From the NCBI GenBank assembly GCA_002726315.1, contig PBSS01000006.1, forward strand, positions 6,025 through 41,924: DNA of 35,900 nucleotides, in the 5' to 3' direction. The DNA comes from Acidimicrobiaceae bacterium (lineage in GTDB: Bacteria; Actinomycetota; Acidimicrobiia; Acidimicrobiales; MedAcidi-G1). Every line of letters starts with the position of its first letter. The first letter of the stretch is position 1. The position numbers and the translations under genes were made by a program. This document shows positions 9,506 to 11,848 of the stretch, piece by piece. The notes below the pieces were generated by a model. That model was not told the DNA's origin, did not search any database, and saw only the letters and a program-made list of their open reading frames with translations.

Positions 9506-9538
9506 ATGTTGCGCCCCGACGGAGGATGGGTTCTGTGA
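9506..9538 (+). CDS. Possible 10-aa leader peptide MLRPDGGWVL
   Basis: The ATG at 9506 opens ten codons and a TGA at 9536-9538. That stop overlaps the GTG at 9535 (GTGA), the likely start of the phosphotransferase gene. A GGAGG sequence (9521-9525) lies inside the ORF, nine bases before the GTG. The arrangement fits a leaderless short ORF that delivers ribosomes to the next cistron or regulates it. No homology can be judged at this length. It may simply be untranslated leader. Confidence 0.35.
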   Translation: MLRPDGGWVL

Positions 9539-10551
9539 GTAGCAGCGACCAGCATGATCCGTATCCGGGCCTTCTTCGGATCGAGCCACTCCGGAAGTGG
9601 TTCGATGAAGTTGGATTGGGTCGGGGATCCGACATCAGTTTTGAGCGAGTGGCTGCTGGTGAGTCCAACGAGGTGTTCGTGGTTCGTCGGAGTGGTTCCA
9701 CCTGGGTGTTGCGACGGCCATCTGCAGTTCCCCTATCAGTGGAGGGGGCCAACAAGATAATGGCCCGTGAATACCGCTTTCAGGGTGCACTGGCTGGTTC
9801 AGGAGTGCCACATGCGAAGCCACTGGCCTTGTGTTGTGATACCTCGGTGACCGGAGCGGTCTTTTACGTGATGGAGTTCGTGGACGGGGTGGTCCTCGCT
9901 GATCCGCCAGCCGAGGAGGTTGGTGGTGAATCTGCTGGGCGCTTGGTGATGGAACAGATGATTGACGCCCTCGCTGATCTGGCGGTGATTGATGTGGACA
10001 AGGTAGGAGTCTCTGACCTCGGCAAGCCCGATGGTTTTCTAGAACGTCAAGTTAGGCGGTGGCGCGACCAACTTGATGGCTACAGCAGGCGGGATCTTCC
10101 CGGCATCGACGGGGTCGGGGATTGGTTAGAGGAGAATCGACCGACGGGGATGCGACCGGGGATTATGCACGGTGACTTCAACCGCCACAACATGTTGTTT
10201 ACGAGGGAACGTCCGACCCGTTTGGCAGCGGTGCTGGACTGGGAGAATGCCACCGTTGGTGACCCATTGATGGACCTGGGTTACTTGCTAAGTAGTTGGC
10301 GACCAGACGATCCAGGCCTTCCCGTGCGTGCCGAACTGGTAGGCCGCTGGTCAGACCGCGCGGGACGTACGCCTGAGGCTCTCGGCTGGTATGCGGTCAT
10401 GAGTACTTTCAAGCTGGCCTGCATGCTTGAGGGGGTCCGAGTCCGCCAACTAGATGATCCGACTCGGGAGGTGACACCATTCTTGGCTGACACTGTGATC
10501 GAACTAGTTGCCCGAGCGGCTGTGTTGATCCATGAGGCTGACACCTGGTGA
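9535..10551 (+). CDS. Aminoglycoside-phosphotransferase-fold kinase, ACAD10-like
   Basis: The protein is about 338 residues with a protein-kinase-like fold. The N-lobe contains FERVAAGESNEVFVV and STWVLRRPS; the catalytic loop is MHGDFNRHNMLF, with the presumed base Asp, and the metal-binding part is VLDWENATVGDPLMDLGYLL. This pattern is typical of phosphotransferases found with acyl-CoA dehydrogenases (ACAD10/11-like), which phosphorylate the hydroxyl of 4-hydroxyacyl-CoAs so that they can enter beta-oxidation. The divergent MaoC hydratase supports a role in acyl-CoA breakdown. The start is set at GTG 9535 because GGAGG lies nine bases before it; ATG 9526 directly abuts that GGAGG and is less likely. 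Confidence 0.85.
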   Translation: MSSSDQHDPYPGLLRIEPLRKWFDEVGLGRGSDISFERVAAGESNEVFVVRRSGSTWVLRRPSAVPLSVEGANKIMAREYRFQGALAGSGVPHAKPLALCCDTSVTGAVFYVMEFVDGVVLADPPAEEVGGESAGRLVMEQMIDALADLAVIDVDKVGVSDLGKPDGFLERQVRRWRDQLDGYSRRDLPGIDGVGDWLEENRPTGMRPGIMHGDFNRHNMLFTRERPTRLAAVLDWENATVGDPLMDLGYLLSSWRPDDPGLPVRAELVGRWSDRAGRTPEALGWYAVMSTFKLACMLEGVRVRQLDDPTREVTPFLADTVIELVARAAVLIHEADTW

Positions 10552-10592: not shown

Positions 10593-10622
10593 TTGCTTTT
10601 ATAGGAATGACAGTGGTGTAAT
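10593..10622 (+). promoter_or_regulatory. Possible promoter of the first whiB gene
   Basis: TTGCTT at 10593-10598 and TGTAAT at 10617-10622 are separated by 18 bases. The -10 falls inside the 22-base palindrome. Transcription would start near 10629, leaving an untranslated leader of about 84 bases that ends with a Shine-Dalgarno sequence. Confidence 0.4.
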
Positions 10623-10632
10623 TACACCACTG
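10611..10632 (+). promoter_or_regulatory. Perfect 22-bp palindrome, probable operator
   Basis: The half-site CAGTGGTGTAA is followed directly by its exact reverse complement. It overlaps the proposed -10 of the whiB gene, where a dimeric repressor would block transcription. As a hairpin it would have a nine-base-pair stem with an AATT loop, but no T-run follows on either strand, so a terminator is less likely. I cannot name the regulator family. Confidence 0.55.
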
Positions 10633-10712
10633 GGGTCCGTTGTGGGCACCAGACCCACGAGTATGGGTTCAGGCAACCGTCCGAGGGACCGGGCGACGGA
10701 AGGCAGAACAAG

Positions 10713-10991
10713 ATGGGCATCTTCGCGAAACCAGACCTAGACATCGATTGGCAGGAGTATTCGAACTGCCTCGGTGTCGATCCAGATCTGTTCTTTCCCG
10801 AGCGTGGCGCGAGTACCAGGGAGGCCAAAGAGGTATGTCGTGCATGCGTGGTCCGAACAGACTGTCTCGAGTTTGCACTCCAGAATGGTGAGAAGTTTGG
10901 CATCTGGGGAGGTATGAGCGAGCGAGAGCGTCGTCGCATCAGGCGTCAACGTGCTCTTGAACGCGCGGCGGCTGTTGCGCAGACGGGCTGA
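10713..10991 (+). CDS. WhiB-family iron-sulfur transcription regulator
   Basis: The protein is 92 residues with the full WhiB plan: cysteines C19, C42, C45 and C51, which ligate a [4Fe-4S] cluster, then GIWGG at 63-67 and a basic C-terminal stretch (ERRRIRRQRALER) for DNA contact. WhiB proteins are found only in Actinobacteria and their phages; they bind the principal sigma factor and respond to oxidants or nitric oxide. A GGAAGG sequence nine bases before the ATG sets the start. The gene has a long leader with a perfect palindrome over its promoter. tatA follows with its own leaderless-type promoter. The subfamily cannot be fixed by eye. Confidence 0.95.
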   Translation: MGIFAKPDLDIDWQEYSNCLGVDPDLFFPERGASTREAKEVCRACVVRTDCLEFALQNGEKFGIWGGMSERERRRIRRQRALERAAAVAQTG

Positions 10992-11590: not shown

Positions 11591-11848
11591 TCAGGCCGCT
11601 GTGGCTGCGACCTCTCGACGTTGCCTGCGTATCCGTCGTCGTTGCCGCTCAGAACAGCCACCCCAGACTCCGTGTTCAACCCGGTGGGTGAGCGCGTACT
11701 CGAGGCACTGTTCTAAGACCGGGCAGCCGGCACAGGCCTGTTTCGCTAACTCCACCCCCACGCCGTCGCTCGGGAAGAAATGTGACGGATGAGTGTTGGC
11801 ACATCTCGCCCGGGTCATCCAGTTGTCGTGAAGTTGAATTGTTCCCAT
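11591..11848 (-). CDS. Second WhiB-family iron-sulfur transcription regulator
   Basis: The protein is 85 residues. Cysteines C16, C39, C42 and C48 form the cluster-binding set, GVWGG is at 60-64, and the tail is strongly basic (ERQRRRIRRQRREV). An extra cysteine directly follows the GVWGG motif. It differs clearly from the whiB product at 10713, so the two are paralogs rather than a recent duplication. ATG 11848 is used; an in-frame ATG ten codons in is possible and would keep all four cysteines. It diverges from the Na/Pi symporter operon, and the 153 bases between them hold a PHO-type repeat. Confidence 0.93.
   Translation of the reverse strand: MGTIQLHDNWMTRARCANTHPSHFFPSDGVGVELAKQACAGCPVLEQCLEYALTHRVEHGVWGGCSERQRRRIRRQRREVAATAA

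Follow-up and report, generated by a model that had tools for sequence, protein, structure and literature searches.

What does a perfect 22-bp palindrome in front of a whiB gene stand for, and which protein, if any, would recognize it? The palindrome, CAGTGGTGTAATTACACCACTG (10611–10632), is located in a 161-bp gap between an APH-family kinase gene (9526–10551) and whiB (10713–10991), within the 35,900-bp stretch of DNA that was analyzed (the window). The original prediction took it for the operator of a repressor that was left unnamed. We consider it highly probable that an operator of the MerR-family protein McdR (ResR, the Rv1830 orthologue) at the whiB promoter underlies the palindrome, and that from it McdR would repress whiB. 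The features of this region are as follows:

10593–10598, + strand: putative −35-like element, TTGCTT, of which TTGC is conserved in family orthologs
10606–10623, no strand assigned: main McdR-type box, AATGACA-GTGG-TGTAATT, an exact fit to AATnACAnnnnTGTnATT
10611–10632, no strand assigned: perfect 22-bp palindrome, comprising the shared core TGTAATTACA and spacer bases that are symmetric by happenstance in this species
10617–10622, + strand: putative −10-like element, TGTAAT, inside the main box after an 18-nt spacer, placed by comparison
10620–10637, no strand assigned: second, weaker box, AATTACA-CCAC-TGGGGTC, with 3 mismatches and offset by 14 bp
10629, + strand: predicted transcription start (approximate), placed from leaderless orthologs
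10713–10991, + strand: whiB, the regulated gene, 92 aa (PF02467, E 5e-26)

The palindrome

The palindrome is as it had been described, with arms of 11 and 11 nt, zero mismatches and zero spacer, and it is the sole perfect zero-loop palindrome with arms of at least 8 nt in the window. Dinucleotide shuffles of the window contained a mean of 0.015 palindromes with arms of at least 11 nt and only 3 of 200 shuffles held one, in agreement with the claim that such a sequence is very unlikely to arise by chance. A search for further copies, which had been suggested, was run and recovered no second copy of the 22-mer within 3 mismatches in the 1.44-Mb genome (88% complete). Across 36 distinct whiB orthologs the 22-mer paired at a mean of 0.66, equal to the 0.66 that independent columns would give; outer pairs 4, 5 and 6 were formed in 28%, 25% and 31% of them, where independence predicts 28%, 25% and 35%. 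Symmetry of the 22-mer as a conserved unit was rejected, as the outer pairs match the independent-column expectation.

The conserved box and its overlapping partner

The comparison of orthologous upstream regions, also suggested with the original prediction, gave a divided answer: the perfect palindrome is not conserved, while a box inside it is. As judged from these alignments, the conserved unit is the dyad AATnACA-N4-TGTnATT, centred 7 bp upstream of the centre of the 22-mer, rather than the 22-mer itself. The main box matches AATnACAnnnnTGTnATT with 0 mismatches, including the 4-nt spacer; no other site in the window has fewer than 3. It overlaps the weaker box by 4 bp and shares the core TGTAATTACA with it; this core sits at the heart of the palindrome because the two inner half-sites of both boxes stand back to back.

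Close whiB orthologues (E ≤2e-44) were present in 43 of the 48 genomes of the window's family, and 42 of these had readable upstream DNA. The main (left-hand) box was exact in 34/42, carried one mismatch in 3/42 and two to six mismatches in 5/42. All five of the latter belong to a single genus, g5, in which the left box has decayed in 5 of 6 genomes; in 4 of the 6, with the left box at 3–6 mismatches, the right-hand box has 2 mismatches (TGTAACC), compared to 3 in the window. Within this one genus, the pattern resembles turnover between the overlapping pair. Except in g5, family orthologs have in common a promoter-like element, TTGC(T/A)(T/A)TT followed by (G)AATnACA GTGG TGTAATT.

Further afield, 80 named loci with a close WhiB were read, of which 78 have upstream DNA (L054 and L083, without it, were dropped) and 13 were set aside by hand as belonging to the window's own family. 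In the other 65 loci, all outside the family, the left box was found with at most 1 mismatch in 58, a descriptive figure rather than a blind test as the sites were picked using a related consensus, and either box was found within the same limit in 60/65; none of 65 composition shuffles of the 300-nt upstream stretches scored below 3 mismatches. Sites at L059, L060 and L098, where the automatic pick lay in another register, were re-anchored by hand. The core TGTAATTACA is nearly invariant across the named loci (columns 11–20). The consensus RATnACA-N4-TGTAATTACA was derived from the family and named whiB loci before the published McdR motif was encountered. Separately, in the whiB upstream region of L127 (about 1350–1385) the usual core gives way to repeats of the motif TTGAAATTACAAG.

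The predicted whiB promoter

The main box stands upstream of a PF02467 gene whose assignment to the WhiB2 class was made by similarity alone. In 8 of the 42 family orthologs 6 nt separate TGTAAT from the start codon of whiB, an arrangement that points to TGTAAT as the −10 element and to a start near 10629 in the window; this assignment, drawn from relatives, is plausible. The claim that the palindrome covers the −10 thus gains comparative support for TGTAAT, while a strict sigma-70 scan does not call the promoter and TGTAAT lacks the usual A at position 2. On the predicted positions, the main box would extend from about −23 to −6 and the weak box from −9 to +9. The predicted whiB leader in the window is ∼84 nt, and whiB transcripts are probably leaderless in genera g2 and g3 (L036, L038, L040, L041, L046, L047, L048 and L052). 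A class-wide leaderless start at a conserved RTG behind the site was rejected since the reading frame was inconsistent. A second whiB gene in the window (11591–11848, − strand; PF02467) has no box within 3 mismatches in front of it.

In the proposed mechanism, a McdR dimer would bind AATGACA-N4-TGTAATT (10606–10623), lying across the last part of the promoter spacer and all of the −10, and would obstruct RNA polymerase. With whiB held down, cell division would be held down as well.

The McdR-like protein

The window's genome encodes a McdR-like MerR protein of 184 aa, on contig C18, in the order gcvH-FHA-FtsR-(phosphoribosyltransferase-like ORF)-DUF151-MerR. This is presumably the gene order of Rv1826–Rv1830. 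The FtsR neighbour scores 182.8 bits against an NCBIfam cut-off of 150; the 166-aa ORF beside mcdR, which we take to be DUF151, adjoins the McdR-like gene in 30 of 30 fetched loci, that of this genome included. In one 6.0-Mb genome the five genes all occur in this order, and a box stands upstream of whiB. Compared with specific models, the McdR-like protein yielded no McdR-specific match and only a weak HspR match in NCBIfam; across 37 McdR-like proteins the stretch VTYRQLDYW in the helix-turn-helix hardly varies. McdR-like relatives are present in 67 of 119 phylum genomes. An exact box was found in 43 of these 67 versus 4 of the 52 genomes without such a protein (counts uncorrected for kinship and base composition); the remaining 24/67 have the protein but no exact box.

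In mycobacteria, McdR (Rv1830) represses whiB2 by binding AATnACAnnnnTGTnATT, and changes to the half-sites or to spacer length abolish the effect of McdR whereas changes to the spacer bases do not (PMC9040748). ResR/McdR binds the whiB2 promoter and McdR is described as conserved across actinobacteria (PMC10336103). The assignment to McdR rests on the exact fit to the published motif, the McdR-like gene, and the co-occurrence of box and protein. The original reading as a promoter-overlapping repressor site is probably right, judging from the sequence comparisons, and its unnamed repressor can now be replaced by a candidate, McdR/ResR.

The site resembles the mycobacterial whiB2 operator in its motif and spacer length, in its whiB target (WhiB2 type by similarity) and in the accompanying McdR-like gene (PMC9040748). 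A repressor site of the McdR motif at whiB is already published for mycobacteria, and the present one is ordinary in kind. It differs in occurring in another class of the phylum and in its predicted placement over the spacer and −10 with a second overlapping box, where the box in mycobacteria is reported to be located around the transcription start (PMC9040748); further boxes are also found here at smc, recA, mcdR, ribonucleotide reductase, dnaE1 and crgA. The 18-bp recognition sequence is likewise that given for M. tuberculosis ResR/McdR, for which the main text stresses translation genes (rplN) as targets and does not mention smc (PMC10336103).

Boxes at other genes

In the window's own genome, an exact box, AATAACACCGGTGTGATT, lies just upstream of smc. 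Within the family, RATNACANNNNTGTNATY occurred in 29 places in 16 genomes, versus 1 for the reversed control; among 15 fetched loci, 10 closely precede smc and 2 whiB, one is at the crgA-TrpG locus, and 2 are at neither. More broadly, AATNACANNNNTGTNATT was found in 162/247 class genomes (reversed control, 12) and 105/296 phylum genomes (reversed control, 13). Gene identities at these loci were checked using Pfam and NCBIfam; the sepX-like gene of the class does not reach the cut-off of its model, and no family is matched by the small gene next to crgA. Among the matches listed were 26 further class loci: 11 precede whiB and 5 precede dnaE1; 3 are at the crgA locus; smc, recO, a ribonucleotide reductase gene and a sepX-like gene account for one apiece; and 3 are at none of these. 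At the phylum level, 13 of 18 loci were at reference genes (5 whiB, 2 dnaE1, 3 TrpG/crgA and 1 each recA, smc and nrdR) and 5 had no reference gene within reach, as was also the case for 12 of 18 hand-picked phylum loci, the other 6 having one. The association between box and gene is weaker outside the class.

Thirteen sites with 1–2 mismatches were read in the genome itself, and those beside recA, crgA and mcdR were kept. A one-mismatch box is located directly behind CGAACGCCTGTTCG (L308, about 1485–1518), which precedes recA and which we assume to be a LexA-type site. Just before the start of mcdR is AGTCACAGAGGTGTAGTT, with 2 mismatches, and boxes with 1–3 mismatches precede the mcdR start in 7 of 7 other family genomes read. 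This position suggests self-repression, so that McdR is predicted to repress its own gene. The site at L309 was discarded as it falls inside a coding frame, presumably PhoH-like; the remaining sites shared no common theme and were treated as chance.

At ribonucleotide reductase genes, the element TTGACA-N4-TGTAATTACATGCGTG was found in 10 of the 12 family genomes searched, in 9 of them without mismatch, and a reductase match adjoins it in 9/10 loci. The site was not found in the window's own genome (88% complete) or in 1 of 6 other genomes of the same genus. These reductase promoters (L321–L330, site ∼1500) carry an almost invariant 26-bp element. From their sequence, the sites can be read as two overlapping degenerate boxes, and NrdR may have a role there.

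Alternative explanations

Classical MerR proteins activate by twisting promoters with unfavourable −10/−35 spacing, and McdR might do so here, given that the dyad lies partly in the spacer and the −10 (TGTAAT) is poor. We regard this as unlikely. The spacing is 18 nt rather than 19–20, the box runs through the −10, and the box at mcdR, just before the start codon, suits blocking. In mycobacteria, moreover, McdR represses whiB2 (PMC9040748).

It is also improbable, to much the same extent, that the site serves some other regulator whose dyad coincides or overlaps with this one, such as NrdR, a WhiA/WhiB complex or a further MerR protein, and that it matches the McdR motif by convergence. Several MerR paralogues exist in the family, and the element is also found in front of ribonucleotide reductase genes and, in a single genome, in front of nrdR; NrdR boxes are AT-rich 16-bp paired boxes. 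Against this, the motif is that of McdR letter for letter, 4-nt spacer included, in front of the same kind of target gene, the box accompanies McdR-like proteins across 119 genomes, and the published BldM, FtsR and WhiA motifs do not fit. FtsR (Cg1631/Rv1828) is also a MerR-family regulator of cell division, encoded close to McdR, yet its operator is a 25-bp sequence, AACCCTAAAGTAAAGGTTGAGGGTA, unlike the box in the window when compared by eye (PMC6683498). The BldM group I site of Streptomyces is likewise a palindromic, developmental operator, while its motif, TCACcCgnncGgGTGA, differs from the present site by the same visual comparison (PMC4125116). The WhiA site is GACAC, where the dyad has GACAG (10609–10613). 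The BldC motif was compared as well and was rejected.

An account in which a conserved asymmetric promoter was extended into symmetry by chance, its dyad having no protein-binding role, is very improbable: the outer symmetry does follow independence and a few shuffled windows hold such a palindrome, but this account holds for the outer bases only, and symmetric AATnACA-N4-TGTnATT also occurs at smc, dnaE1, recA and further genes without the context of a whiB promoter. That the kinase gene upstream ends here in a terminator or RNA hairpin can practically be dismissed, as had been argued from the lack of a T-run, since the 9-bp hairpin that the palindrome could form as RNA folds well (z −3.4) but the terminator scan found neither T-run nor terminator-like site at the palindrome, the hairpin-forming symmetry is not kept among whiB orthologs, and the whiB start codon follows directly in 8/42 of them.

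The crgA-side element

In the window's own genome the crgA box (one mismatch; C49:7396–7413) is not at a promoter; it falls in the gap between two convergent genes, downstream of both crgA and a small zinc-ribbon-like gene. A 9-mer resembling TTATCCACA (at most 1 mismatch), which we take to be a DnaA box, occurs within 80 bp of the box at 15 of 15 crgA loci, exactly in 11, and in 2% of their shuffled flanks. These loci span the phylum and were grouped after the pairing had been noticed (L310 around 1501, L150–L152, L157, L158, L163, L167, L215, L225, L229, L252, L254, L255 and L293). Near boxes elsewhere, the 9-mer was found at 0/17 whiB, 0/12 smc, 0/3 recA and 2/7 dnaE1 loci. CCACAGG/CCTGTGG repeats at the crgA loci could be terminators of the convergent genes.

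A tentative extension, which we hold to be possible and somewhat short of an even chance, is that McdR/ResR is a phylum-wide cell-cycle regulator and that the crgA-side element is a replication control site where McdR and DnaA meet. In principle such an element would be comparable to datA and DARS of E. coli.

Significance

McdR/ResR has been described as essential in M. tuberculosis, and a link to antibiotic resilience has been reported (PMC9040748, PMC10336103). A full-text search with the motif string returned the mycobacterial paper only, and none of 9 papers that name at least two of McdR, Rv1830 and whiB2 is listed as dealing with McdR in other bacteria, in a literature collection without most subscription journals. 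To the extent of these searches, McdR-type boxes have not been described before in another class, at smc, at genes of replication and repair, at mcdR, or as an element beside crgA.

If the tentative extension holds, one class of box would couple division (whiB, sepX-like), segregation (smc) and replication (dnaE1, ribonucleotide reductase), and would also cover repair (recA, recO) and mcdR itself, such that the role of McdR would exceed the regulation of division and stress in mycobacteria. The occurrence of the box from Acidimicrobiia outwards at whiB, smc, dnaE1, ribonucleotide reductase, recA and mcdR suggests an ancestral role, which may have been to tie DNA replication and segregation to division.
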